DNA from: Sandaracinus amylolyticus
GTDB lineage: Bacteria; Myxococcota_A; Polyangia; Polyangiales; Sandaracinaceae
Assembly (NCBI RefSeq): GCF_000737325.1
Contig: NZ_CP011125.1
Location: 7,626,001 to 7,690,000, forward strand
Reading direction: 5' to 3'
Length of the DNA: 64,000 bases
Part shown: piece after piece, positions 3,702 to 31,547 of the stretch
Numbering within the stretch: the stretch's first letter is position 1
How the letters are laid out: each line of letters starts with the position of its first letter
Notes under the pieces: model-generated
The model's database searches: none
Seen by the model: only the letters and a program-made list of their open reading frames with translations
What the model was told of the DNA's origin: nothing
Made by a program: the position numbers and the translations under genes

Positions 3702-4799
3702 TCAGAAGCGCAGCTCGTCGGGGTGGACGCCGTGGATGCATCCCGGCGCGGCCCAGATGCGGCGCTCGCTCAGGTTCATCAGCACGCCGGCGCAGGTGAG
3801 CATCGCGTGCGGTGCGCGCTCGCTCGCGAGGTGCGTGCACACGCTGCGCGGGTAGCCCTCGTGCGAGCCGAGGCGCGACCAGAGATCGCGCGCGCTCTCG
3901 ATCGTGTGATCGCGCAGGCTCGCGTCGAGGAACGCGAAGCGCTCGCGCGTGGTGCTCGTGCTCGCGATCGAGCTGACCTTCGCGACCTCGGTGCCGAGGC
4001 AGTGGTTCTCGTGGTGGAACGCGCCGCCGGGCTTCGAGACGTCGAGCTCGGCCCACACCTCGGCGAGGCGGCCCGACGTCTCGATGCCGAACGCGCGCTG
4101 CGCATCGGCCACGAGGTAGTGATGTCCCGAGCCGAGCGGCGCGCCGACCACGACGTCGCGCGCGGCATCGGCGCGGCGCTCGGCGAGCGCGCGGCGCACC
4201 AGCGCGGGCCACACGAGCCCGACACGCGCGTCGTGGCTCTTGAGGTTGTTGATCGTCATGCCGACGCCGGCGTCGTTCATGCCGGCCATGCCGAGGCATC
4301 CGGTGATCGTGAGCAGCCACGCGGCCGGGCGGTCCTGCCACGCAGGCACGTGCAGCATGAGCACGTAGGGCGCGGCCGAGCCGTGCATGTCCCAGGTCTG
4401 CCCGAGGATCGCCCCCTCGCGCGTGCCGGCGACGATCGCGCTGCACTCGTCGTCGCGATCGGGATCGGCGCCGCGGCGCGCGCCGCCGAGGACGGTGCTC
4501 GGATCGAGATCCTTGAGGTCGGTGTAGTGGTTCAGGACGACGATGCGCGCGGGCGGGAGCGACGCGCCCTCGGCGATCCCGAGCAGCTCCTGGTGGAGCG
4601 CGGCGTCGAACGCCTCGAGGACGGGCAGGTGTCGTTCGGCGACGGCGAGGAGCTCCGCGTCACTCCGGAAGAGGCCCTGCTGCTGCGCCAGCTCGCTCCG
4701 GATCGCGGCGATCTCCGCGATCTCGCGGGCGAAGGCTCGACCGTGGGCGACACCGCGCTCGAAGGGACCGGCCGCGGCGGGGAGGTGGAACGTGCGCAT
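3702..4799 (-). CDS. C45-family peptidase / acyl-CoA:6-APA acyltransferase-like hydrolase
   Basis: A 365-residue N-terminal-nucleophile hydrolase-like protein resembling the acyl-coenzyme A:6-aminopenicillanic acid acyltransferase (C45) family. The likely nucleophile is Cys119 in DDECSAIVAG, followed by GQTWDMHG, the usual block after the nucleophile. Members self-cleave before this Cys and then hydrolyse or transfer acyl amides. Later blocks N-x-x-G (GMNDAGVGMTINNL) and the C-terminal IHGVHP also fit. The frame extends to 4889, but the extra residues look non-coding; ATG 4799 precedes the conserved RTFHLPAAAGPFERG start. It converges on the preceding gene with a 3-base gap. Substrate unknown. 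Confidence 0.78.
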   Translation of the reverse strand: MRTFHLPAAAGPFERGVAHGRAFAREIAEIAAIRSELAQQQGLFRSDAELLAVAERHLPVLEAFDAALHQELLGIAEGASLPPARIVVLNHYTDLKDLDPSTVLGGARRGADPDRDDECSAIVAGTREGAILGQTWDMHGSAAPYVLMLHVPAWQDRPAAWLLTITGCLGMAGMNDAGVGMTINNLKSHDARVGLVWPALVRRALAERRADAARDVVVGAPLGSGHHYLVADAQRAFGIETSGRLAEVWAELDVSKPGGAFHHENHCLGTEVAKVSSIASTSTTRERFAFLDASLRDHTIESARDLWSRLGSHEGYPRSVCTHLASERAPHAMLTCAGVLMNLSERRIWAAPGCIHGVHPDELRF

Positions 4800-4900
4800 C
4801 GTCACCCGGGCTACCGCGGTCCGCGCGCGGGAGCAAACGTCGCTCTTCTCGTGCCCCTCGCGTTCACGTAGGCTCGTACGTCGCAACACGGACCAACACC

Positions 4901-12697: not shown

Positions 12698-14416
12698 TTA
12701 CCGCGAGCGACGCGCGATCTGGATGCCCGACGCGAGCCAGACGTCGCGATCACCGACCCAGAGGCGCCCCGAGAAGAACGCGCTCACGGCGTGGAAGCGC
12801 GCGAGGAGCGCGTCGTCCCCCGAGACCGGCACCACCGGCGCCGATGCGTCGAAGCTGGTCGCCCAGACCGTGTCGCCGTGCGCGACGAGATCGCCGAAGC
12901 CCCACGTCTCGCTGACCGTCGCGCGCGACCACGCGACGCCGTCGAAGTGGAAGAGGACGCCGGCGCCCGGCGCGCGCGCGTTCGGGCGCTCGACGCCGAT
13001 CGCCCAGAGGTCGCCCTCGCGCGTGCCCGCGACGTCGTCGAGGTCGAGCTGCAGCGCGGGATCGGAGGGCTCCGGCTCGAGCGCGACCGACCACGCGCCG
13101 TCGTAGCGGAGCACGAGCGCGCGGCCATCGACGTGCGCGACGAAGAGCGCGAGCTGCGGCGTGACCGCGTGCACGCGCGAGACGTAGCCGTCGGTGCCGA
13201 GGATCGCGGGACGCGCGATCTCGTGAAGGCGCTCGCCGTCCCAGTGGAGCAGCGGATCTGCGACGATCCACACGCTGCGCGCGCTCGCGCCGTCGAGGTC
13301 GGCGAACGCGCCGGTCGCGAGCTCGGTCCAGGTCTCGCCGTCGTAGCGCTCGAGCACGCTCGGCGCGAAGCCCGTGGCGCTCGACGGGATGCCTGCCCGC
13401 ACGCGCCACAGATCGTCGGGCGCGCCGCCCCACGCGATGCGGCTCTCTTCTGCGAAGAATGCGGGCGGGAGCGCGCCCCACTGCGCGTCGGGCGCGCGCT
13501 CGAGGGTGCGCACGGCGCGCGGCGCGGACGCGCCGTCGTAGCGCAGCACCTGCCCCTCGAGGCCGAGGCAGAACGCTTCCGCGCCGATCCGGACGACGTC
13601 TCGTCCGCAGCCGATCGCGGAGCGCATCGAGACGACGCCGGCGTGCGCCGCGATCAGGGCGTCGTCCGCGGTCGGTACCGCACCGTCGAGGCCGGGCCAC
13701 GCGAGGACGTCGAGCGACGTGCGCGCGATCGGGCTCCACGCCGCGCCGTCGTAGCGGAGCACCTCGCCGCGCCCGACGATCACCACCTCGCCGTCGACGA
13801 CCGCGAGCCGGTGGGAGAGCGGGTCGAGGTCCTGTCCGACGTGCGCCCAGCGCGCTCCGTCGTGGCGCATGACACCGCGCAGGTCGGCGCCCTGCATCGC
13901 GAGCATCCACACCTCGCCGGGCGCGACCGCGAGCATGTCGAACACGAGCGCGCCCTCGAGCGAGCGGTCCTCCCAGCGCGCGCCGTCGAAGTGCTCGATG
14001 TCCGCGCCGTCGGCGATCCACGCGTCGGTCGCGGAGGTGGCCGCGACGAGACGCGCGCCGCGATCGGCGCGCACGGCCGACCAGCGCCCGTCCTCGGCGC
14101 GCCAGACCGCATCGAGGCTCACCACCCACGCCGTGCCGTCGCGCGCGACCGCGACGTCGAGGAGATCGTCGCGCGTCGCGAGGTCGTGCTCGCGCCAGCC
14201 GGCTCCGGTCCACTCGATGACCGAGCCCTGCTCGCCGACCGCGATGACCGACGACGGCGAGACCCCGTCGATGGCCGTGAGGTCCGCGCCCTCGACCCAG
14301 CACCAGTCGGCGCATGGCGGCAGCGGATCGGGCTCGGGCTCGGGATCACGATCGCTGGTCCCGTAGCAGCCCGACGCGACGAGGAGGCAGCAGGCGAACG
14401 AAGCATGTCGAAGCAT
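12698..14416 (-). CDS. Beta-propeller-like lipoprotein
   Basis: A 572-residue lipoprotein (lipobox VASGC, Cys17) with a Pro/Glu-rich linker. Repeated blocks of the form W..V..L..I.G......I.VG..G....WTGAGW and YDG..W follow, typical of the Trp-Asp-rich propeller repeats common in myxobacterial surface proteins. There is no catalytic motif. It is divergent from the STAND regulator with 77 bases between start codons, so the two may share control; whether the regulator senses or controls this protein is speculation. Confidence 0.7.
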   Translation of the reverse strand: MLRHASFACCLLVASGCYGTSDRDPEPEPDPLPPCADWCWVEGADLTAIDGVSPSSVIAVGEQGSVIEWTGAGWREHDLATRDDLLDVAVARDGTAWVVSLDAVWRAEDGRWSAVRADRGARLVAATSATDAWIADGADIEHFDGARWEDRSLEGALVFDMLAVAPGEVWMLAMQGADLRGVMRHDGARWAHVGQDLDPLSHRLAVVDGEVVIVGRGEVLRYDGAAWSPIARTSLDVLAWPGLDGAVPTADDALIAAHAGVVSMRSAIGCGRDVVRIGAEAFCLGLEGQVLRYDGASAPRAVRTLERAPDAQWGALPPAFFAEESRIAWGGAPDDLWRVRAGIPSSATGFAPSVLERYDGETWTELATGAFADLDGASARSVWIVADPLLHWDGERLHEIARPAILGTDGYVSRVHAVTPQLALFVAHVDGRALVLRYDGAWSVALEPEPSDPALQLDLDDVAGTREGDLWAIGVERPNARAPGAGVLFHFDGVAWSRATVSETWGFGDLVAHGDTVWATSFDASAPVVPVSGDDALLARFHAVSAFFSGRLWVGDRDVWLASGIQIARRSR

Positions 14417-14439
14417 TCGACGAGCGTGCGCGGCGCCCT

Positions 14440-14457
14440 CTTAATCGTCGACTTAAG
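14440..14457. promoter_or_regulatory. Inverted repeat in divergent promoter region
   Basis: CTTAATCGTCGACTTAAG has 5-bp arms CTTAA/TTAAG around an 8-base centre that contains TCGA. It is unusually AT-rich for this genome and sits in the middle of the 77-base gap between the propeller lipoprotein and the STAND regulator. It is a candidate operator or promoter element. Confidence 0.4.
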
Positions 14458-14493
14458 CAGCGCAGCGGTCTCCATGCGGTAGAACGTGCTCCG

Positions 14494-16920
14494 ATGCGCG
14501 TCACCGGTCCGCTCGTGGAGCTCGTGGGACGCGACGTCGAGCGCGCGCTCCTCGACGCGAGCGTGCGCGACGGTGGGCGGCGGCTCGTGACGATCCGGGG
14601 CGTCGCGGGCGTGGGCAAGACGTGCCTGGTGCGCCACCACGCCGCGAGCCAGCCACGGGCGGTGCTGTGCGACGTCACGCGCGCGGCGGACACGCGCGAC
14701 CTCTGCGCCGCGGTGGCGCGCGAGCTCGGCGTGGGCGCGAGCATCGGCGTGTCGCGCCTCGGCGAGGTGCTCGCGCGGCGGGGCACGATCTCGCTGGTGC
14801 TCGACGGCGCGGAGCGGATCGTGGACCGACTGACGCGCACGCTCGGCGCGTGGCTCGACGCGGCGCCTGCGCTGCGGATCCTCGTGACGTCGCAAGTGCG
14901 CCTGGAGCTGCCGGGCGAGCGCGTGATCGTGCTCGAGCCGCTCGCGCCGCACGACGCGGCGACGCTCTTCCGCGCGCGCGCCCACGACGCGCGCGGTCGC
15001 GCGCTGCCCGACGATCCCGACACCGAGCGCGCGATCGCCGCGATCGTGCGCGCGCTCGACGGGATCCCGAGCGACCTCGAGCGCATCGCGGCGCGGACGG
15101 TCGCGCTCACGCCGGTCGAGCTCGCGACGCGGCTCGACGAGCTCGCGGACGTGCGCGCGCTCGATCGCGCGTGGTCGCTCGCGAGCCCCGAAGCCCATCG
15201 CGCGCTCGAGGCGTGCGCGCTCTTCGAGGGCGAGCTCACCCTCGCGGCGGCCGACGCGATCCGGAGCGGGTGGAGCTCGAGCGCGATCACGCTGCAGGAG
15301 CTCTGCGATCGATCGCTGGTGCGCGCGCGCGATCACGCCGACGGGACGTCGTACGCGCTCTACGCGTCGGTGCGGCGCGGCGCGAGGGCGCGGCTCGCAT
15401 CGCGGCGCGGTGCGGCGCGCGTGCGCGCGAGGTTCGAAGAAGGTGTGCTCGCGCTCGCATCGAGCGCGGATGCCGATCTCGACGCGCCCGGCGCGGTCGC
15501 GGCGCTGGCGCGCCATCGTGGCGATCTCGAGCGCATCGCGCGCGAGGCATGCGACGCGGAGACCCGCGCGCGCGCCGTGCTCCCGCTCGCATCGCTCGCG
15601 GCGCTGCAAGGCGGAATCGAGGACACGTGGGCGCTGCTCGACGCGGCCCTCGCGGGCTCGCTCGAGGACACGCTGCACGCGCGTCTGCGCCACGCGCGCG
15701 CTCGGCTCGCGCGCAGGATGGGCCGGCCGCGCGATGCGCTCGCGGACTTCGAGGCCGCGTCGGCGCTCGCCGGCACGAGCGATCTCGCGCCGCGCATCGC
15801 GACCGACTGGGCCGGGCTGATGCGGCACCTCGGCCGGCGCGACGAGGCGCGGGCGCTCTACCAGCGAGCGCTCGATGCGTACGCCGCACGCGGGGACGCG
15901 CGTGGTCGCGGCCGGACGCTGTCGTCACTGGCGACGATGACGCACGAGCACGGAGATCTCGAGGGCGCGCGCGTGCTCTACGAGGAAGCGGTCGCCGCGC
16001 TCGTGGCCACGAACGATCGCCTCGCGCTCGCGATGGCGCGACAGAACCTCGGGCTGCTGGAGCAGGAGTCGGGCGATCTCGACGCCGCGGAGCAGACGTT
16101 CCGCCGCGCGCTCGACGCGCATCGCGCGCTCGGGAACCGGCGCTTCGAGGCGATCTCGGAGCTCGATCTCGCATGCCTCGAGCTGGAGCGTGGGCGCCCG
16201 CGCGACGCGCTGGACGGGCTCGCGCGCGCCCAGGCGATCGCGCGCGCTTCGGGGGATCGACGCGAGGTGGGCCTCGCCGCCGCGACGAGCGGTGCGTGCC
16301 ACGCGATGGCGGGCGCGCTCGCGGCGGCGGAGCGCGCCTTCGCGATCGCGCGACGCGAGCTGCGCGACGTCGACGAGCCCGCGCTGCGGCTCGCGCTCGA
16401 GGTGCACGAGCTGCACGGCGATCTCGCGGAGGCGGATCGTGCGCGCATCGCGCGCGACGCGCGCCGCAGCGCGGAGCTCCTCGCGTCGATCGACGCGCGC
16501 ATCGACGAAGCGGAGCGCGCGCGAGCCACGGGTGACGAGGTGCGCTTCGCGCTGCGCGTGCTGCGCGCCGAGCGCGCGCGTTGGGTCGCCCGTGCGCGCA
16601 GCGCGACGGTCGCGCGCGACGGGACGTGGTTCACCCCGCCCGGGCACGCGCCGGTGAGCCTCGCGCCGCGACCGGTGCTCGCCTCGATCCTGCGCGCGCT
16701 CGTCGCGCAGCACCTGCGGCGAGCCGACGTGCCGCTCGCGAACGAGGCCGTGGTGCGCGCCGGCTGGCCCGCCGAGCGCACACTCACGCGCGCGAGCCGC
16801 AATCGCCTGCACGTCGCGATCGCGACGCTGCGCAAGCTCGGGCTCGACGCGCACCTCGTCTCGCAGGGAGAGGGCTATCTGCTCGAGCGCGTGGCCGTGC
16901 ACGACCCCGCGCTCGAGTGA
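14494..16920 (+). CDS. STAND ATPase with TPR repeats and C-terminal winged helix
   Basis: An 808-residue predicted regulator. The P-loop is GVAGVGKT (36-43) and the Walker B-like strand is SLVLDGAE, together a STAND-type NTPase (MalT/AfsR style). From about 380 to 660 it is helical TPR-like repeats (LARRMGRPRDALADFEAAS; AEQTFRRALDAHRALGNR). The last ~75 residues (NRLHVAIATLRKLGL, then GEGYLL) look like the DNA-contacting half of an OmpR/SARP-type winged helix, here C-terminal rather than N-terminal. Start ATG 14494 precedes the conserved VELVGRD. Its stop abuts the opposing fusion gene. It is probably an inducer-activated transcription factor; ligand unknown. Confidence 0.75.
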   Translation: MRVTGPLVELVGRDVERALLDASVRDGGRRLVTIRGVAGVGKTCLVRHHAASQPRAVLCDVTRAADTRDLCAAVARELGVGASIGVSRLGEVLARRGTISLVLDGAERIVDRLTRTLGAWLDAAPALRILVTSQVRLELPGERVIVLEPLAPHDAATLFRARAHDARGRALPDDPDTERAIAAIVRALDGIPSDLERIAARTVALTPVELATRLDELADVRALDRAWSLASPEAHRALEACALFEGELTLAAADAIRSGWSSSAITLQELCDRSLVRARDHADGTSYALYASVRRGARARLASRRGAARVRARFEEGVLALASSADADLDAPGAVAALARHRGDLERIAREACDAETRARAVLPLASLAALQGGIEDTWALLDAALAGSLEDTLHARLRHARARLARRMGRPRDALADFEAASALAGTSDLAPRIATDWAGLMRHLGRRDEARALYQRALDAYAARGDARGRGRTLSSLATMTHEHGDLEGARVLYEEAVAALVATNDRLALAMARQNLGLLEQESGDLDAAEQTFRRALDAHRALGNRRFEAISELDLACLELERGRPRDALDGLARAQAIARASGDRREVGLAAATSGACHAMAGALAAAERAFAIARRELRDVDEPALRLALEVHELHGDLAEADRARIARDARRSAELLASIDARIDEAERARATGDEVRFALRVLRAERARWVARARSATVARDGTWFTPPGHAPVSLAPRPVLASILRALVAQHLRRADVPLANEAVVRAGWPAERTLTRASRNRLHVAIATLRKLGLDAHLVSQGEGYLLERVAVHDPALE

Positions 16921-19900
16921 TCAGCCGATGGCGCGCAGCGCCGCGCCGAGCGCCTCGCTCTGCGCGACCGCGCGGTCGAGCGCGGGCGCGATCGCGATGC
17001 GCCCACCGGGCATGCGCCGCACCACGATCCCGCGCGCGCGCAGCGCGTCGGCGATCGCGTCGCGCCGCTCACCGAGCTCGACGACGCGATAGAGCCCCGC
17101 ACCGTGCGCGCTCGTGCCCGCGAGCGCCGCGTCGAGCGCGCTCGCGCCCGCCGCGACGTCGACCTTGCGTGCCGCGCGCAGCTGATGATGCATCTGGATC
17201 AGCGAGAGCTCGTCGCCGTCCCACGTGCTCACGAACGTCATCGGCGTCGCGACCCAGAGCGACTTGCCGACGTGCACCATGCCGAGCTGCCCGCCGGTCC
17301 ACCACACGCGCGCGTCGGGCACGAGCTCCCACGACGCGCTCGCGAACGCGCCCGCGCCGCTGCGGTAGTACGCGCCCGCGGTCTCGACGCTCACGATCGG
17401 CACGCCGGTCTCGGCGCGCAGCCGCGCGAGGGCATGCACGAATGCATGGCTCAGCACCCGGCCCGTGCGCTCCTGCATGGGCTCCACCACGATGCCCAGC
17501 ACGTTCGCGGGCCCACCGGCCGCGGCGATCGCGGCGCGCAGCGCGGCCTCGCTCTCCGCGTCACCGGCGCTCGCGGGGTGGGGCACCCGCGGCCACTCGA
17601 AGAGCGCGGGCCCCATCGCGTGCACCTCGGGATCGCTGATCGATCGCGCGCACGCGCTGGTGTGACCGACGTACGCGCCCTCGAGCGAGATCACGACGCG
17701 CGCGCCCTTGCGGTGCCAGCGCAGCATCCGGATCGTCTTGTCGATTGCCTCGTCGCGCCCCGACGCGAGATAGACGTGCGGCAGATCCGGGCACAGCGCG
17801 GCGACGTGCTCGATCGCGCGCACCGCGGGCGGCGTCACGTAGTTGAGCAGCGTGATCTTGTCGACGGTCGCGCCCCACACGATGCCCTCGCGCTCCGCGC
17901 GCACCAGCGTCGCGGGCGGCGCGGCGAACGGCGCGACGAGGCCGCTCGCGAGATCGACGACGCTCTCGTTCGTCGCCGGAACGCCACCCTCGACGGCGAT
18001 CGGCCCGAGCGGCTGGCGGTAATAACGCGCGCGCGCGTCCTCGCCGTACTGGTTCTCGAGCGTCACCGCGGTGAACGCGCCGAACGAGTCGTTGAGGCGC
18101 ACCATCGCGTCCGCGTGGCCGAGCCGGTTGCGCCCGGTGCACCAGCGATAACGCGGCGAGCCGTCGGGCCGCTTCATCGCGCGCGCGTGCTCGAGCTGCG
18201 CGGCCTTGAGCCGACGCCCGATGCCCGTGCCCTGCAGCTTCGGATCGACCGTCAGCGCGAGGCTGTAGATCGTGTCGCCGCGACCGCGCGCGGGATCACG
18301 ATCGGGCCCCGACACGTCGGGCACGCGCTCGATCGGCGCCGCCATCGCGTAGCCGACGAGCGTCCACACCTCGCCGTCCTTGCGCTCCGCGAGCACCACG
18401 ACGCCATCGGCGTCCTCGAAGCCGAGGCGCAGCCGGTGCTCGGGGTCGCGGCGTGCCGGCTCGTACACCTGCTCCTCGAGCGCGAGGATCGGCGGCAGCA
18501 ACGCCTCGACCTCGTCGGGCGCGGCGCGCCGGATGCGCACCTCGGGCTGCGCGGGGCGCGGCGGCGGCGCGAGCTCGTGCCACTCCGGCGCCTTCTCGTG
18601 CGGGTGCGCGTCGAGCCACGCGAGCGACTGGTGCACGACGCGGAACACCGCGTCGACGTCGTGCTCCTCGAAGCTCGCGTTGAGGCGGTAGCGCACCGTG
18701 CGATCGCCCGCCGCGAACGCGATCGCGCCGCGCCAGAAGCGCTGCCCGAGGTACGCGTCGAGCTCCGCGGGCGTCTCGAGATCGAACGCGAACGCGAAGC
18801 CGCACGCGCGCACGCAGCGGATGCGGTGGCCCCAGCGCCGCTCGAGCTCGGGGATCCGCGCGCGCACCATCGCCTCGACGCGCGCACCGTCGCCGCCGGT
18901 CGCGAGCATCGACGCGTGGAGGCGACCGCGGATCAGCGACGCCGCGAACGCCTGCGTCGGCTCGGGATCGGCGAACCGGGTCATCACCACGCCGACCTGC
19001 GCGCGCTTCGCGAAGGTCACGCAGTCGGGCGTGTCCGCGTGCCCGTCCGCGTCGACGAGCCCGAAGCGTCGATGCCACGCGAACGAGCCGCCGAGCCCGA
19101 AGCCGCACTGCACCTCGTCCATCACGAGCGGCACGCCGAGCGCGCGCGTCACGAGCCGCAGCCCGTGATGGAAGCGCGAGGTCGCGTAGCGATCGCCGCC
19201 CTCGCTCTGCATCGGCTCGACGATCACGACGAAGTGCTCGTGCCGCAGCAGCGTGTCGACGACGACCGCGAGGGACTCGACCTCCGCGCGCAGCAGCGGG
19301 TCGTCGCTGTTGCCGAACCGAGCGCGCAGCGCCTGCGCGTCACCGCGCGCGCAGACGTCGCGCCAGCCCGCGGGCTCGTCGGGCTCGCCGTCGTTGGGCG
19401 TGCCCCAGAGCGGCCACGGCGCGAACGTCGCTTCGTACCCAGCGATCTCGAAGGGCGTGCGCTTGCTCGGCGAGTGCGTCGCGTGCAGCGCGAAGAGCGT
19501 GCGCCCGTGGAAGCTTCCGTCGAACGCGAGCACACGCGGCCCGCGATCCTTCGCGTGCAGACGCGCGAGCGCGAGCGCCTTCTCGTTCGCCTCGGCCCCG
19601 CTCCCCGCGAAGCACACCGTCGGCAGCCCGGGCACGAGCGCGCGCAGCGTCTGCGCGAAGTGCTCGGCCGCGCGCTGGCCCGCGCCGTCGAGCTCCGACG
19701 TCGGCAGCGTCACGTCGTGGGCGCGCAGCATCGTGTCGCCCCACTCGCCCTCGACGTACGCGCGCACGAGATTCTCGTGCGAGAAGCCGAACGGCATCGT
19801 CGCGGTCTGGCTCATCGCGTCGATCACCGAGAGCGGCGTGGGATCGACGCTGACCATGAACGGCCCGTGCGAGCGCACGTGATCGAACACGAGCTGCTTC

Positions 19901-21549
19901 TTCTCGCGCGGCACGCGATCGCCCGCGTAGAGCCGCTCGACCCACTTCGTGCTCTCGGGCACGGCGCCGCCCTTCGGGCGCACGATGCGCATCGGGCGCG
20001 CGTCGGCGCTCGGCGTGCGGTTCGCCTCGGCGCGCTCCTCCGCGTCGTGCATCGCCTCGAGCCGATCGAGATCGTGCGGCGGCAGCGCGCGCGCGATCGC
20101 GGCGTGGGTCGCCATCGAGAGCACCGAGTTGCTCTGCACCGCGACCGGGATCGCGAGGTTGCGCGGCGCGAACGAGCCCGCGGGGCGGAAGTTGCCGCTG
20201 CGCCCGGTGCCGCCGAACGGGAGGCGCGGCGACGCCTGGTTCGTGCTGCGGTTGCGGTTGAGGATCCCGCAGCGCGTCTCGCGGTAGTAGCGATCGAAGC
20301 GCGCGTCGCTCGACGTGAACACGCTGTTCGCGAAGCCGTACGGCGACGCGTTCAGCACCGCGATCGCCTCGTCGTCGTTCTCGACGATCTCGACCCCGAC
20401 GTCGGGCCCGAAGAGCTCGGTGTCGGTGTAGCCCGGCACGTCGTGCACGCCCTCGGGGAGCAGGTGCACCGAGCCGCTGCGATAGAGCCCGCCGGGCAGG
20501 CGCTTCCCCTCGACCACCACGTCGGCGCCCGCGCGCACCGCGCACGCCATCGCGGCCTCGAGCTTGTCGCGCCCCGCGCGCGTCGCCATGGGCCCCGCGA
20601 ACGCGCTCGCGTCGTCGGGATCGCCGAACCGCAGCGCGCTCACGATCTTGCGCAGCGCGTCGATCAGCGGCCTCGCGAGCGAGCGGTGCACGAGCACACG
20701 ATCGGTGCAGGTGCAGCGCTGACCGGTCGTGAGGTACGCGCCGACCGCGATCTCGTGCGCGGCCTGACGCACGTCCGCGTCCTCGCACACGATCACCGTG
20801 TTCTTCCCGCCCATCTCGAGCGCGACGAGCATCTCCGGCTTGTCGAGCGCGGCCTCGCTGATGCGGCGACCGACGGGCCAGCTGCCGGTGAACGCGAGCC
20901 CGTGCACGTCGGGGTGCGCGACCATCGCCGCGCCGGTCGGGCCGCGCCCCTGCACGACGTTCAGGACGCCGGGCGGGAGCCCCGCCTCGTGCGCCGCCTC
21001 GGCGTAGCGGATCCCACAGAGGGGAGCCGTCTCACTGGGCTTCATGACGACCGTGTTTCCGAGCAGGAGCGCGGGAACTACGTGTGCGTGGCAGAGATGA
21101 AGGGGGAAGTTGAAGGGGCCGATCACCCCGACGACTCCATGCGGATGCCAGCGCAGCGCCTCGTTCGGGAAGCCGGGCAGCGGCCCGTCGCGCAGATCGG
21201 ATCGGATCTGCGCCGCGACGAGATCGAAACGTCCGATCAGCGAGTCGATCTCGACCCGCGCCTCCGATCGGATCTTGCCGATCTCCTTCACCACCGCGTC
21301 GGCCAGGTGCTCCTTCTGCGCGACGATCACGGCGCGGAAGCGGTGCAGCGCGGCGAGGCGATCGTCGAACGAGCGTCGCGACCACGCGACCTGCGCGTCC
21401 TTCGCCGCCGCGACCGCGTCGGCGACGCGCTCGGCGCTCCACGCGGTCTGCACGACGGGCTCGCCGTCGCGCGCGGGGTTCTCGGAGATCAGGGGCTCGC
21501 CAGAGGGCGGAACGAAGCGTCCGCCGATGTAGTCGCCAGGGATCGGCAT
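16921..21549 (-). CDS. Four-domain fusion: aldehyde dehydrogenase - class III aminotransferase - GNAT - aminotransferase-like pseudo-domain
   Basis: A 1542-residue cytoplasmic polypeptide. Residues ~1-470: NAD(P)-dependent aldehyde dehydrogenase close to AstD (GVIGPFNFPLHL, Glu245 in ALEMGGKN, nucleophile Cys279 in TTGQRCTCTDR). ~520-990: fold-type I class III aminotransferase (FAGSGAEANEKAL, Asp811 in MDEVQCGFG, Schiff-base Lys848 in FAKRAQVG, resembling L-lysine 6-aminotransferase). ~1005-1180: GNAT (VDPKLQGTGIGRRLKAAQ). ~1210-1542: a second aminotransferase fold whose PLP sites read VETAGAYYR and WWTGGQLGM, so both the Asp and the Lys are gone. ATG 21549 is chosen over an upstream frame extension. 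It probably processes lysine/ornithine-type amino acids; divergent from the NRPS. Confidence 0.85.
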   Translation of the reverse strand: MPIPGDYIGGRFVPPSGEPLISENPARDGEPVVQTAWSAERVADAVAAAKDAQVAWSRRSFDDRLAALHRFRAVIVAQKEHLADAVVKEIGKIRSEARVEIDSLIGRFDLVAAQIRSDLRDGPLPGFPNEALRWHPHGVVGVIGPFNFPLHLCHAHVVPALLLGNTVVMKPSETAPLCGIRYAEAAHEAGLPPGVLNVVQGRGPTGAAMVAHPDVHGLAFTGSWPVGRRISEAALDKPEMLVALEMGGKNTVIVCEDADVRQAAHEIAVGAYLTTGQRCTCTDRVLVHRSLARPLIDALRKIVSALRFGDPDDASAFAGPMATRAGRDKLEAAMACAVRAGADVVVEGKRLPGGLYRSGSVHLLPEGVHDVPGYTDTELFGPDVGVEIVENDDEAIAVLNASPYGFANSVFTSSDARFDRYYRETRCGILNRNRSTNQASPRLPFGGTGRSGNFRPAGSFAPRNLAIPVAVQSNSVLSMATHAAIARALPPHDLDRLEAMHDAEERAEANRTPSADARPMRIVRPKGGAVPESTKWVERLYAGDRVPREKKQLVFDHVRSHGPFMVSVDPTPLSVIDAMSQTATMPFGFSHENLVRAYVEGEWGDTMLRAHDVTLPTSELDGAGQRAAEHFAQTLRALVPGLPTVCFAGSGAEANEKALALARLHAKDRGPRVLAFDGSFHGRTLFALHATHSPSKRTPFEIAGYEATFAPWPLWGTPNDGEPDEPAGWRDVCARGDAQALRARFGNSDDPLLRAEVESLAVVVDTLLRHEHFVVIVEPMQSEGGDRYATSRFHHGLRLVTRALGVPLVMDEVQCGFGLGGSFAWHRRFGLVDADGHADTPDCVTFAKRAQVGVVMTRFADPEPTQAFAASLIRGRLHASMLATGGDGARVEAMVRARIPELERRWGHRIRCVRACGFAFAFDLETPAELDAYLGQRFWRGAIAFAAGDRTVRYRLNASFEEHDVDAVFRVVHQSLAWLDAHPHEKAPEWHELAPPPRPAQPEVRIRRAAPDEVEALLPPILALEEQVYEPARRDPEHRLRLGFEDADGVVVLAERKDGEVWTLVGYAMAAPIERVPDVSGPDRDPARGRGDTIYSLALTVDPKLQGTGIGRRLKAAQLEHARAMKRPDGSPRYRWCTGRNRLGHADAMVRLNDSFGAFTAVTLENQYGEDARARYYRQPLGPIAVEGGVPATNESVVDLASGLVAPFAAPPATLVRAEREGIVWGATVDKITLLNYVTPPAVRAIEHVAALCPDLPHVYLASGRDEAIDKTIRMLRWHRKGARVVISLEGAYVGHTSACARSISDPEVHAMGPALFEWPRVPHPASAGDAESEAALRAAIAAAGGPANVLGIVVEPMQERTGRVLSHAFVHALARLRAETGVPIVSVETAGAYYRSGAGAFASASWELVPDARVWWTGGQLGMVHVGKSLWVATPMTFVSTWDGDELSLIQMHHQLRAARKVDVAAGASALDAALAGTSAHGAGLYRVVELGERRDAIADALRARGIVVRRMPGGRIAIAPALDRAVAQSEALGAALRAIG

Positions 21550-21644: not shown

Positions 21645-24600
21645 ATGAGCGCCGTCACGCTCGCCGGCGACGCCGCGCACGCGCTCGACGTCGTGCTCCG
21701 CGCACGCGAGCACGAGGCCGCGGGCGACGTCGAGTTCCCGCTGACGCCGACCCAGCACGCGATGCTGGTGCACAGCCTGCGCGCGAGCGCGGCCGGCGTG
21801 GAGATCGAGCAGCTCGTGGTGCAGCTGCCCGAGGCGATCGACGTCGCGCGCATGCGCGCGGCGTGGACCTGGGGCGTCGACCGCTTCGAGGCGCTGCGCA
21901 CGCATTTCGTGTGGCACGACGGCGAGCCGCGGCAGCGCGTGGTCGCGCGCGCGACGCTGCCCTTCGAGCACACGAGCACCGATGATCTCGTGCGCTTCCT
22001 CGCCGAGGATCGCGCGCGCGGCGTGGACCTCGGTCACGCGCCGGGCGCGCGCGTGACGCTGCTCTCCCGAGGGCCGCTCGATCACACGCTCGTCTTCACG
22101 TTCCACCACGCGCTGCTCGACGGTCGCTCGTTCACCCGCGTGCTGCGCGAGGTCATGCAGCGCTACGACGAGGGCGAGACCTACGATCCGCCCCGCCCGC
22201 CCTCGATGCGCGCGCACTGCGAGCACCTCGCGACGCGCGACCTCTCCGCGGATCGCGCCTTCTGGAGCGAGCACCTGCGCGGCTTCGGCGAGCCCACACC
22301 GCTCCCGGGGTCACGCGCGACCGCGGAGCTCGGCGCGCGACACGTCGAGCTCGAGGCGCGGCTCGGCGCGAGCACCACGTCGCGCCTCGTCGAGCTCGGC
22401 GTGCAGCACGGGTTCACGCTCGCGAACGCGGTGCAGGCGGCGTGGGCGATCGTGCTCGCGCGTCACGCGCGAGAAGACGACGTGTGCTTCGGATCCACGC
22501 GCGCCGCGCGCCACGGCACCGTGCCCGAGGCGCTCGAGGCCGTGGGCTGCCTCATCCACACCACGCCGCTCCGCGTCGCGGTCGCGCCCGATCGCGAGCT
22601 GCTCGCGGTGCTGCGTGATCTCCGCGCGTTCGGCCTCGCGGTGCGCGCGCACGAGCACGCGCCGCTCACGTCGATCCGCGAGTGGACGGGCCTGCCCGCG
22701 AGCACGCCGCTCTTCGAGAGCCTCGTCGTGTTCGAGCGCTACCTCGTCGATCGCGAGCTGCGCGCGCTCGGCGGCGCGTGGAGCGCGCGCCGGGTGAGCG
22801 TGCACGAGCAGAGCGAGCCTCCGCTCGTGCTCGCCGCCTATCAGGATCGCGACGATCTGATCCTGAAGCTCGAGCACGACCCCGCGCGCTTCGATCCCGA
22901 CGTGATCGCCTACGTGCTCGATCACGTCGTCGCGATCCTCCGCGGCATCGCGGAGCGCCCGCAGGCGCGCGTCGGCGAGCTCGTGATGATCGGCGAGGAC
23001 GAGCAGCGCGTCCTGCTCGCGCTCGCGGGCGGCGACGGCGCGCGGATGCCCTGCGACGCCACCACGATCACCGCCGCGATCGCCGACGTCGCCCGCCGTG
23101 CCCCCGACGCGCTCGCGCTCACCGGGGTGTCCTTCGCGCAGCTCGATCGCGACGCGGGCGTCCTCGCCGCGCGCCTCGCCCACGAGGGCGTCGCCCCGGG
23201 CGACGTCGTCGCGGTGTCGGTCCCTCGCGGCCGGCACCTCGCGATCGCCCTCCTCGGCGTGCTGCGCGCCGGCGCGGTCTACCTCCCGATCGATCGCGAG
23301 TGGCCGCGCGAGCGCGTCGCGATGGTGCTCGAGGATGCCGGCGCGAAGCGCGTGATCGTCGACGCCCGCACCCGCGATGCGTTCACCGCGCACCCGTGCC
23401 TCGCGATCGACGAGCCCACGTCGCTCGATCCCATCGCCCCGATCGCGCTCGACCCCGACGCGCCCGCGACGCTGATCTACACGTCGGGCTCGACGGGCCG
23501 CCCCAAGGGCGTGCTCGTCCCGCACCGCGCGCTGCTCGCCCATGCGCGCGCGATCGTCCCCGCGTACACGCTCGACGCGCGCGACCGCTGCCTGCAGTTC
23601 ACCTCGCCGAGCTTCGACGTCTCGCTCGAGGAGATGCTGCCCACCTGGCTCGCCGGCGCGTGCGTCGTGCCGCGCAGCGAGCACGCGTCCTCGTCGATCG
23701 ACGCGTTCCTCGTCGAGCTCGAGCGCCACGCGGTCACGGTCGTGAACGTGCCGAGCGCGTTCTTCACCGAGGTCGCGCTGCACCTGCGCGATCACGACCG
23801 CACGCTGCCCGCGTGCGTGCGCCTCGTGATCGTCGGCGGCGAGCGACCGAGCGCGCGCGCCTACGCCACCTGGCGCGCCCAGCACCCCGACGTGCGGTTC
23901 GTGAACGCCTACGGCCCGACCGAGGTCACGATCACCAGCACGCTGCACGATCCCGGCGCCGCGACGCCGAGCGAGCTCCCGATCGGACGCCCGCTCGGCA
24001 CCTGCCGCGCGTACGTGCTCGACGCGGGCGGACAGCTCGCACCGCGCGGCGCGATCGGCGAGCTCGCGCTCTCGGGCCCGCAGGTCGCGCTCGGCTACCA
24101 CGCGCGCCCCGAGCTCACCGCCGCGCGCTTCGTCCCCGATCCGTTCGCGCCCGGCGCGACGATGATGCGCACCGGCGATCTCGTGCGCTGGAGCGCGCGC
24201 GGCGAGCTCGAGATCCTCGGCCGCGCCGACGAGCAGCTCAAGATCCGCGGCTTCCGCATCGAGCCGGGCGAGATCGAGTCGGTGCTGCGCGCCGATGCGC
24301 GCGTGCGCGACGTCGTCGTGGGCGCGCGCCCCGATGCGTCGGGCGCCCTGCGCCTCGTCGCGTGGGTCGTGCTGCACGATCACGAGCTCGATCCCGCCCT
24401 CCTCCGCGCGACCTGCGAGGCATCGCTGCCCGGGTCGATGATCCCCTCGGCGTTCGTGCGCATCGACGCGCTCCCGATCACGCCGAGCGGAAAGGTCGAT
24501 CGCCGCGCCCTGCCCTCTCCCGAGCTCGGCACCGCGCCCCGCGCGCGCCGCGACGACCCGCCCGAGGGCGCGTTCGAGACGTGGATCGCCGCGCTCTTCT

Positions 24601-25586
24601 GCGAGCTGCTCGGGGTGCCGGAGGTCGGCGCGAACGAGAGCTTCTTCGAGCTCGGCGGGCACTCGCTGCTCGCGGTGCGCCTCCTCTCGAAGCTCTCGGC
24701 GCGCGGGCCCATCGAGCTCGGCACGATCTTCCGCGCTCCCACCGTGCGCGCCCTCGCGCGCGCCATCGAGAACGGCACGAGCAGCACCGACGCGACGCTC
24801 GTCCCGCTGAACGCGCGGGCGCGCGAGCCGCTCGATCCCGCGCGCGCGCCCTTCTTCCTGCTCTGCGGCGTGCAGCTCTACGCCGCGCTCGGCGACGCGA
24901 TGTCCGGCGATCGCGCCGTCTTCGGCGGCCTGCTCGCGTGCGAGGCCGACGTCGTCGGCCCGCCGCTCGACGTGCAGGCGATGGCGCCGGTCTACCTCGC
25001 GCGCATCCGCGCGCTCCAGCCGCACGGCCCGTACCTGCTGGGCGGCGTCTCGTTCGGCGGCGTCGTCGCGTACGAGGTCGCGCAGCGCCTGCGCGCGCTC
25101 GGCGAGCGCGTCGAGCTGCTCGTGCTCCTCGACACGATCCTCCCGCGCGGCCTGCACAGGGCCGGCGTCCTCGGCCGCGCCCGCACGCACCTCGAGCGGC
25201 TCCGCGACCCGCGCGCGTTCCTCGCGCACGTGCACGCCGCGATCACCCAGCGCCTCGTGCGTCGCACCGAGACCCCCGCCGCCGCGATCGATCCCGGCGC
25301 CCTCACGACCGAGGCCATCGACGCGATCCGCGACGAGCGCTTCCGCGCCGCCGCCGAGCGGCACGACCCGACGATGCGCCCCTACGAAGGCCCCGCGCTC
25401 GTCTTCACCGCGCGCCATCGCCGCGTGTTCCCCGGCGATCGCGTCGACCGCGACCTCGGGTGGACCTCACTCCTGCGCGGCCGCGTCGCGTACCACCCGG
25501 TCGACGGCAACCACCTCACGATCCTGCGCGAGCCCGGCGCGAGCGAGATCGCGCGCGTGCTGCGCGAGCGCCTCCAGAACATCTGA
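21645..25586 (+). CDS. Stand-alone NRPS module (C-A-T-TE)
   Basis: A 1313-residue non-ribosomal peptide synthetase. Condensation domain ~28-450 with intact HHALLDG (154-160). Adenylation domain ~470-955 with IYTSGSTGRPKGV, NAYGPTE, RTGDLVRW, GRADEQLKIRGFRIEPGEIE and Lys950 in ITPSGKVDRR. Carrier domain with phosphopantetheine Ser1007 in FFELGGHSLLAV. Thioesterase with Ser1136 in GGVSFGG and a C-terminal DGNHLTI His. My hand-aligned specificity residues are D658 V659 E662 N701 I729 G731 A755 I763 T764 K950. The acidic E662 suggests a basic amino acid. One complete module with its own release domain should make an N-acyl amino acid or short conjugate. Confidence 0.93.
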   Translation: MSAVTLAGDAAHALDVVLRAREHEAAGDVEFPLTPTQHAMLVHSLRASAAGVEIEQLVVQLPEAIDVARMRAAWTWGVDRFEALRTHFVWHDGEPRQRVVARATLPFEHTSTDDLVRFLAEDRARGVDLGHAPGARVTLLSRGPLDHTLVFTFHHALLDGRSFTRVLREVMQRYDEGETYDPPRPPSMRAHCEHLATRDLSADRAFWSEHLRGFGEPTPLPGSRATAELGARHVELEARLGASTTSRLVELGVQHGFTLANAVQAAWAIVLARHAREDDVCFGSTRAARHGTVPEALEAVGCLIHTTPLRVAVAPDRELLAVLRDLRAFGLAVRAHEHAPLTSIREWTGLPASTPLFESLVVFERYLVDRELRALGGAWSARRVSVHEQSEPPLVLAAYQDRDDLILKLEHDPARFDPDVIAYVLDHVVAILRGIAERPQARVGELVMIGEDEQRVLLALAGGDGARMPCDATTITAAIADVARRAPDALALTGVSFAQLDRDAGVLAARLAHEGVAPGDVVAVSVPRGRHLAIALLGVLRAGAVYLPIDREWPRERVAMVLEDAGAKRVIVDARTRDAFTAHPCLAIDEPTSLDPIAPIALDPDAPATLIYTSGSTGRPKGVLVPHRALLAHARAIVPAYTLDARDRCLQFTSPSFDVSLEEMLPTWLAGACVVPRSEHASSSIDAFLVELERHAVTVVNVPSAFFTEVALHLRDHDRTLPACVRLVIVGGERPSARAYATWRAQHPDVRFVNAYGPTEVTITSTLHDPGAATPSELPIGRPLGTCRAYVLDAGGQLAPRGAIGELALSGPQVALGYHARPELTAARFVPDPFAPGATMMRTGDLVRWSARGELEILGRADEQLKIRGFRIEPGEIESVLRADARVRDVVVGARPDASGALRLVAWVVLHDHELDPALLRATCEASLPGSMIPSAFVRIDALPITPSGKVDRRALPSPELGTAPRARRDDPPEGAFETWIAALFCELLGVPEVGANESFFELGGHSLLAVRLLSKLSARGPIELGTIFRAPTVRALARAIENGTSSTDATLVPLNARAREPLDPARAPFFLLCGVQLYAALGDAMSGDRAVFGGLLACEADVVGPPLDVQAMAPVYLARIRALQPHGPYLLGGVSFGGVVAYEVAQRLRALGERVELLVLLDTILPRGLHRAGVLGRARTHLERLRDPRAFLAHVHAAITQRLVRRTETPAAAIDPGALTTEAIDAIRDERFRAAAERHDPTMRPYEGPALVFTARHRRVFPGDRVDRDLGWTSLLRGRVAYHPVDGNHLTILREPGASEIARVLRERLQNI

Positions 25587-30203: not shown

Positions 30204-31547
30204 TCAGCCGGGCAGCGCCGCGAGCGGGCGGATGCCCGCGGCGCCGAGCGCCTCGACGTGGGCGCGCAGGATCCCGGCGCACCGATGCCGCGCCGCGCAG
30301 CCATTGCACGCGGCGACGAAGACGCGCTGGCGATCCTGCTTCACGCGATCGTCTTCCGACCCCGGCACGATGCCGAGATCCCAGAGATGGAGCGCGCGCC
30401 CACCCTCCGCGCGGACCAGCCCCCGCACGAGGTGCGACGGCGGGAGCACGCAGACCGGCAGGTCGGTCTCGAAGCGATCAGCGTGACGCGCGACGACGCC
30501 CGCCAGCTCGTCGAAGGGGACGGCGTCGTGGAGGTGCTCGCGCTCTCCCACGCGGTTCGGCCACAGCATCCGCACGCTCACGTGGAGGCCGAATCGGCGC
30601 TGCGCGAACGCGAGGAGCTCCTCGAGACCGTCGAGGGTGCTCCGCAGCGCCAGCGTCGTGAGCACGACGCGCGGGCGCCCGAGCGCGAGCACGACGTCGA
30701 GCGCGCGGCAGAGCGTGTCGAAGCTGCCGGGCGTGCCGGTGACCGCGTCGTGCGCCTGGGCGGTCGCGCCGTAGATCGGGATCTGGACGGCGTTCAGCGG
30801 GCCCGAGGACAGCGCGCGCGCGAACGCCTCGTCGGCGAGGCGCTGTCCCGGGCTCTGCGCGACGATCGTTTGGTAGCCGAGCTCGCCCGCGCGCTCGAAC
30901 AGCTCGAGCGCGTGCTCGAAGCGCAGCACGTCGTTGCCGCCGACGTCCACCGCGTGCGCGCCGAGCGACCGCGCGGCCTCGAGCTGGTGCACGAGATCGT
31001 CGAGGTGCGTCCGCGCGTCGACCCGTGGGTCGACCTGGTGCTGCTTGTCGCGGCTGGGACAGAACGAGCACGCCATCTCGCACGCTTGGGTGACGACGAG
31101 CACCGCGTGGTCGAAGCGTCGCGCTTCGGCGCGGAGCGCCTCGATGCCCGCGTCGAACGTCGCGCGCGACCACGAGCCGCCTGGGTCGCGCTCGACCACC
31201 GCGAGCCGGCGCTGCTCACGAGGAGAGCGCTCGGGCGCCTCGAGCACGAGGCCTCCGGGATCGCGCGCCGCGAGCCGGCGTGCGAACGCAGCGACGCTCT
31301 CGATCGCCGCGCGTGGCAGCGGCGCGCCGTCGCGCGTCACGTACGAGATCGCGAAGCTGCGGGTATATGCGAGCGCCTTCACGTCCTGCGCCCGAGTCGC
31401 GATGCGGAGCTGCACGTCGCCCGCCGGCGTGGCGAGCGCGAGCTCGATCTCGGCGCGCGTCTCGCTCGGGCGGACCGACGAGATCGCGAACGGCAGGCCC
31501 GCCAGCAGCGGCTCGAGGAGCGCGCGATTGCGTCGGAGCGCCGACAT
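30204..31547 (-). CDS. Radical SAM protein with C-terminal cysteine cluster
   Basis: A 447-residue radical S-adenosylmethionine enzyme. The 4Fe-4S motif is CX3CX2C at Cys156/160/163 (QACEMACSFCPS). GGND and later beta-strands follow, as in the SAM-binding half barrel. The C-terminus has CNGCAARHRC (about 420-430), possibly binding an auxiliary cluster like SPASM-type enzymes. The N-terminal ~145 residues are extra and unassigned. No precursor peptide or pathway partner is visible nearby, so the substrate is unknown. Confidence 0.8.
   Translation of the reverse strand: MSALRRNRALLEPLLAGLPFAISSVRPSETRAEIELALATPAGDVQLRIATRAQDVKALAYTRSFAISYVTRDGAPLPRAAIESVAAFARRLAARDPGGLVLEAPERSPREQRRLAVVERDPGGSWSRATFDAGIEALRAEARRFDHAVLVVTQACEMACSFCPSRDKQHQVDPRVDARTHLDDLVHQLEAARSLGAHAVDVGGNDVLRFEHALELFERAGELGYQTIVAQSPGQRLADEAFARALSSGPLNAVQIPIYGATAQAHDAVTGTPGSFDTLCRALDVVLALGRPRVVLTTLALRSTLDGLEELLAFAQRRFGLHVSVRMLWPNRVGEREHLHDAVPFDELAGVVARHADRFETDLPVCVLPPSHLVRGLVRAEGGRALHLWDLGIVPGSEDDRVKQDRQRVFVAACNGCAARHRCAGILRAHVEALGAAGIRPLAALPG

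Follow-up and report, generated by a model that had tools for sequence, protein, structure and literature searches.

The window analysed here, a stretch of 64,000 nucleotides from Sandaracinus amylolyticus, belongs to a genome represented by one contig of 10,327,335 bases. Its minus strand carries a frame (16921-21549) of 1,542 codons plus a stop, with no internal stop, that joins an aldehyde dehydrogenase (ALDH), a class III aminotransferase (AT1), a GNAT acyltransferase and a second aminotransferase-like region (AT2) (Table 1). A sequence-only reading of this DNA had described four enzyme-sized domains in a single frame and had proposed a domain search. Searching the translation with Pfam identified Aldedh at residues 16-458 (370 bits), Aminotran_3 at residues 547-973 (144 bits) and Acetyltransf_1 at residues 1028-1125 (26 bits, above the cut-off), and the fourth region gave weak aminotransferase matches. 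GC content by codon position is coding-like and similar across the four domains and their linkers, and the homologue at locus L009 has its ATG start at the same place. The description of four domains thus holds, and Cys279 of the ALDH and Lys848 of AT1 lie at the positions that had been given.

Table 1. Features of the fusion gene and of the C45 gene in the window.
Feature	Window coordinates	Residues	Strand	Evidence
Whole fusion gene ALDH-AT1-GNAT-AT2, 1,542 aa	16921..21549		minus	ATG start at 21549; stop-free frame
Aldehyde dehydrogenase domain, AstD-like; Cys279, Glu245	20095..21549	1-485	minus	Pfam Aldedh; AstD models and structures best; invariant catalytic residues
AT1, class III aminotransferase; Asp811, Lys848, Arg683, Glu783, Arg953	18580..19989	521-990	minus	Pfam Aminotran_3; Rv3290c top fold match
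GNAT acyltransferase domain	17989..18543	1003-1187	minus	Pfam Acetyltransf_1; model and GNAT structure matches; invariant columns
AT2, aminotransferase pseudo-domain; no PLP Lys, STWDGDE with Thr1442	16924..17937	1205-1542	minus	Weak class III match; profile alignment
C45 family autoproteolytic acyltransferase/hydrolase, proposed deacylase	3702..4889		minus	NF040521; DDEC motif; directly downstream of fusion in relatives

On one side of the fusion, a single-module NRPS gene (C-A-PCP-TE, nearest the MxcG/EntF models; 21645-25586, plus strand) diverges from it over a short gap. On the other, the end of a gene for an AAA/TPR protein with a MalT-like TPR region (14314-16920, plus strand) adjoins its 3′ end. 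A link between the fusion and the NRPS was set aside because the NRPS neighbourhood is conserved only in the closest species.

The whole chain was found in eight other genomes of the same family, at 57-95% identity, and also in other families and classes, which argues that the fusion is more than chance; a MAG relative labelled uncultured Sandaracinus carries the entire chain at 70% identity. Class- and phylum-level searches, read in loci taken from the genomes concerned, yielded 66 loci that encode the GNAT domain. AT1, GNAT and AT2 share one frame in 58 of these loci across the phylum, and so the domains do not occur as unrelated free-standing genes with different partners, the arrangement that the sequence-only reading had named as evidence against it. 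The exceptions comprise an ALDH-GNAT protein alone (L109), four loci in which the aminotransferase parts are strongly degenerate (L112, L113, L118, L119), and copies that are broken or run off a contig (L198, L200, L201). In most families the ALDH is either fused to AT1-GNAT-AT2 (f1, f23, f60, f65, f68, f72 and most of f67) or encoded by a separate gene immediately upstream (f59, f64 and most of f49); for most f18 loci and some of those in f4 it is located elsewhere. The sequence-only reading had raised the prospect of a chain that does not release the semialdehyde; since the ALDH gene is free-standing in several families, its fusion is not required. We conclude that ALDH-AT1-GNAT-AT2 is a real, conserved multi-enzyme protein.

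Variants of the architecture were observed. In L109 (8735-10798, minus strand) the ALDH is joined straight to GNAT in a protein of 688 aa that has no aminotransferase domain; it lies near an OpuAC-type transporter, in a genome lacking the KamA-II subgroup described below. Such transporters also stand beside the gene in L107 and L130 and were too rare to use. In L181, L182, L187 and several f49 loci, ~100 additional residues separate AT1 from GNAT when compared with the window protein.

The ALDH domain is a full-length member of the superfamily PF00171 with catalytic Cys and Glu, and Cys279, Glu245 and Asn147 are invariant in all 37 aligned rows. Its description as AstD-like was borne out by its best matches, which are AstD models and AstD structures, though the domain falls far below the AstD equivalog cut-off (TIGR03240, 351.9 bits against 579.3). 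It scores 352-364 bits with AstD models and 212-268 bits with succinate-semialdehyde dehydrogenases. The GNAT domain combines a Pfam match above cut-off with an acyl-CoA loop resembling QGxGxGRxLK and with invariant Glu, Arg, Gly and Lys columns in 41 rows, and its structure model (pLDDT 95.0) is matched by GNAT structures at Z ~19. No AstA-type match to this domain was found among the Pfam and NCBIfam family models, and none to AblB-type beta-lysine acetyltransferases up to E 0.1; the domain may still have such an acetyltransferase activity.

AT1 has the PLP lysine, the aspartate and the carboxylate arginines of class III aminotransferases. Asp811, Lys848, Glu783 and Arg953 are kept in 59/59 homologues and Arg683 in 58/59. 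The sequence-only reading had likened the domain to lysine 6-aminotransferase, and its top fold match is indeed the lysine epsilon-aminotransferase Rv3290c (Z 33.7, rmsd 2.4 over 402 residues), but it reaches only 99.4 bits against the 520.8-bit cut-off of L-lysine 6-transaminase (TIGR03251). In sequence AT1 is close to GABA aminotransferases, and it carries the carboxylate arginine of the FHGR motif.

AT2 (residues ~1205-1542) has no Pfam match above any cut-off. It weakly matches class III aminotransferases (NCBIfam, 47 bits; PDB 6fyq, E 8e-8) and can be aligned by profile to a second aminotransferase encoded in the operon described below (hhalign, 99%). AT2 lacks the PLP lysine and the aspartate, and no aligned row has a lysine at the PLP position, which places it outside the catalytic class III enzymes. 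These enzymes assemble each PLP site from two subunits, a threonine in a loop of one subunit binding the phosphate of the PLP in the other; PDB 2jje is the T330S variant of Rv3290c. AT2 retains a near-invariant STWDGDE motif whose Thr1442, kept in 59/62 rows, falls on the threonine of the operon's second aminotransferase in the profile alignment. At the corresponding loop AT1 has threonine in only 1/59 rows and otherwise Glu, Asp, Gln, Arg or Ser, the alignment being less certain here because the loop is shortened. Moreover, in the five f4 loci where AT1 has lost its lysine (L112, L113, L114, L118 and L119), the STW motif of AT2 is lost too (5/5).

AT1 thus has a cofactor site without the lent threonine and AT2 the reverse, and the losses of their motifs are correlated. 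This suggests that AT1 and AT2 of one chain probably form a pseudo-dimer with a single PLP site, in which AT2 would act as a pseudo-subunit lending its partner loop (Thr1442) to AT1, with GNAT between the two along the chain. The sequence support for this pseudo-dimer is good. The structure model of residues 503-1542 is confident overall (pLDDT 91.4, pTM 0.92). Pseudoenzyme domains can also serve as sensors or scaffolds, and AT2 might be just a structural or regulatory remnant, with AT1 pairing with the AT1 of a second chain; we consider this quite improbable, given that AT2 retains precisely the partner loop and loses it where the AT1 lysine is lost. The earlier label of a dead aminotransferase is therefore apt for the PLP site of AT2 itself but overlooks that the domain probably serves AT1 as its partner half.

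In relatives, the fusion heads an operon on the same strand that continues with genes for a C45 amidohydrolase, a second class III aminotransferase and subunits A and B of a 3-oxoacid CoA-transferase. The C45 gene lies downstream of the fusion in 32/66 loci and CoA-transferase A in 35/66, with loci at contig ends counted. The CoA-transferase genes of L128 pass the 3-oxoacid (pcaIJ/scoAB) cut-offs, with 294.9 bits against 243.6 for TIGR02428 and 264.7 against 128.5 for TIGR02429. In S. amylolyticus the operon is loosened: the C45 protein in the window matches NF040521 with 169.8 bits (cut-off 85) and its gene is 51% identical to the operon C45 gene of a relative, and the aminotransferase and CoA-transferase genes are ~60 kb away (G000:C1:7579429-7585127). 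All of these genes and the fusion occupy one strand and span no more than 68 kb. A PcaF-like thiolase was present in all 21 operon-bearing genomes examined; since most f12 and f18 genomes without the operon have it as well, it was not used as a deciding marker.

Several further arrangements were seen around the operon. At L108 (5440-8109, plus strand) the C45 hydrolase and the second aminotransferase are fused in one frame. A gene for an FHA-GAF-SpoIIE phosphatase is divergent from the fusion at L128 (12891-14741, plus strand) and in most f23 loci, its place being taken in f18 by an AraC-type regulator. Five operon-bearing genomes seem to manage without AT1. At L112, L113, L114, L118 and L119 the GNAT domain is conserved, but the aminotransferase domains on either side of it are dead or have disappeared; nearby, these loci retain the CoA-transferase genes and, in most cases, the second aminotransferase.

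Taken as a set, the acyltransferase, omega-aminotransferase, AstD-like ALDH, deacylase, second transaminase and 3-oxoacid CoA-transferase point to a diamino acid with a carbon skeleton that finishes as a 3-oxoacid. The sequence-only reading had matched the domains to the acylation, transamination and oxidation of the arginine succinyltransferase route. That logic fits, and its steps appear to belong to one route, with AT1-GNAT-AT2 on one chain and the ALDH fused or upstream. The arginine pathway itself does not fit: the GNAT domain has no AstA-type match, the AstC and AstD cut-offs are widely missed, and the partners are a C45 hydrolase, a second aminotransferase and a 3-oxoacid CoA-transferase. 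The partners expected of a plain AST pathway were not found in the operons of relatives.

On chemical grounds beta-lysine fits, because its 6-semialdehyde would cyclise unless the 3-amino group were blocked and because the product would be 3-oxoadipate. According to this model, a KamA-type 2,3-aminomutase would convert lysine to beta-lysine, and GNAT would acylate the 3-amino group to give N3-acyl-beta-lysine, so that the later semialdehyde could not close to a five-membered pyrroline. AT1 would then transaminate the 6-amino group with 2-oxoglutarate, and the ALDH would oxidise the resulting semialdehyde to 3-acylamidoadipate. The C45 amidohydrolase would strip the acyl group to leave 3-aminoadipate, which the second aminotransferase would convert to 3-oxoadipate; the CoA-transferase would form 3-oxoadipyl-CoA, and a thiolase would split it into succinyl-CoA and acetyl-CoA. 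The operon order of C45, second aminotransferase and CoA-transferase A and B is the order of these proposed steps. In being AstD-like, the ALDH is related to enzymes that handle N-acylated amino semialdehydes, which counts in favour of the route.

The beta-lysine model predicted that an aminomutase should co-occur with the operon, and this was then checked in the genomes. The KamA family as a whole is uninformative, being universal in the class (126/126 genera); only the KamA-II subgroup separates genomes. All 31 operon-bearing genomes had KamA-II, against 12 of the 47 operon-free ones (Fisher p 3e-12, a value that treats these related genomes as independent). Within f4 the corresponding counts were 9/9 and 0/10, and within f18 13/13 and 1/9. 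All these contrasts probably rest on a few gains or losses. KamA-II has the PLP lysine and both aspartates that correspond to those holding the lysine ammonium in lysine 2,3-aminomutase, which makes that activity possible; it scores 256 bits against the TIGR03820 cut-off of 525. In S. amylolyticus the KamA-II gene is at 3.9 Mb, far from the fusion at 7.6 Mb, and the other KamA homologue occupies the C-terminal part of an open frame of 858 residues (L213, 22-2595, plus strand). A radical SAM gene in the window (30204-31547, minus strand) was rejected as a KamA candidate, being HxsC-like instead and well below the HxsC family cut-off.

Together, the operon partners and the co-occurrence of KamA-II point to beta-lysine, as a hypothesis. 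We tentatively propose, with somewhat less than even confidence, that the gene encodes three consecutive steps of diamino-acid catabolism, most likely of beta-lysine made from lysine, with AT2 as the pseudo-subunit of AT1; the substrate, the acyl group, the order of steps and the contact between AT1 and AT2 are our inferences. Counting against the proposal are the split operon of S. amylolyticus, the distance of KamA-II from the fusion there, the 12 operon-free genomes that have KamA-II, its score below the aminomutase cut-off, and the five operon-bearing genomes that seem to lack AT1. Acylation, transamination and oxidation would suit any diamine, and the top fold match of AT1 acts on lysine, so that an N-acyl route for alpha-lysine, ornithine, putrescine or cadaverine, with deacylation and a second transamination after the oxidation, was also considered. 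Such a route is rather unlikely: it offers no place for a 3-oxoacid CoA-transferase or a KamA homologue, and AT1 retains the FHGR arginine. Putrescine aminotransferases have a lysine in place of this arginine.

The strongest rival keeps beta-lysine as substrate and changes the order of steps to that of the aerobic route of Pseudomonas, reportedly described by the groups of Stadtman and Barker. Here, GNAT would acetylate N6, one aminotransferase would remove the 3-amino group, and the CoA-transferase and thiolase would yield 4-acetamidobutyryl-CoA; following deacetylation and thioester cleavage by C45, the other aminotransferase would act on 4-aminobutyrate and the fused ALDH would oxidise succinate semialdehyde. 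This scheme gives every gene a role, agrees with the sequence proximity of AT1 to GABA aminotransferases and its FHGR arginine, and is served equally by the co-occurring KamA-II and the available thiolase. We nevertheless judge it unlikely: the ALDH is closer to AstD than to succinate-semialdehyde dehydrogenases, the gene order does not follow its steps, and the fusion would couple the first step with the last two. The AstD likeness and the gene order favour the version ending in 3-oxoadipate.

The literature searched yielded no description of the fusion or of 3-aminoadipate metabolism, nor any gene-level account of aerobic beta-lysine degradation. With more reserve than for the gene itself, we suggest an undescribed, phylum-wide lysine degradation pathway in which three middle steps reside on one chain, where an active domain and a dead one together make up the aminotransferase site. 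If so, genes would be assigned to a beta-lysine catabolic route that has no gene-level account in that literature, and a protein of ~1,500 residues common to many myxobacterial families would be explained. It would also be a natural case, within one chain, in which a dead domain is retained as one half of the active site of its twin and losing one half of the AT1/AT2 site accompanies losing the other.

Among known systems, the AST pathway (AstCADBE) shares with the proposed route the protection of one amino group by acylation, omega-transamination, oxidation by an AstD-like semialdehyde dehydrogenase and deacylation. It differs in that here neither an AstA-type acyltransferase nor AstB was found, the deacylase is of the C45 family, a second aminotransferase, a CoA-transferase and an aminomutase are added, and three steps are fused in one chain. 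Aerobic beta-lysine degradation in Pseudomonas has in common the N-acylation of beta-lysine, transaminations, a CoA-transferase and deacylation, and differs in order and end product. KamA-II has the radical SAM motif, PLP lysine and both ammonium-binding aspartates of lysine 2,3-aminomutase (AblA/KamA), but lies under its equivalog cut-off. AT1 has the same catalytic residues as Rv3290c (LAT) but lacks the partner loop, which AT2 of that chain seems to provide. In the S-adenosylmethionine decarboxylase of trypanosomes, a dead paralogue is likewise needed by the active copy (PMC5201418); there it relieves autoinhibition, whereas here the two domains lie on one chain with another enzyme between them and would share an active site.
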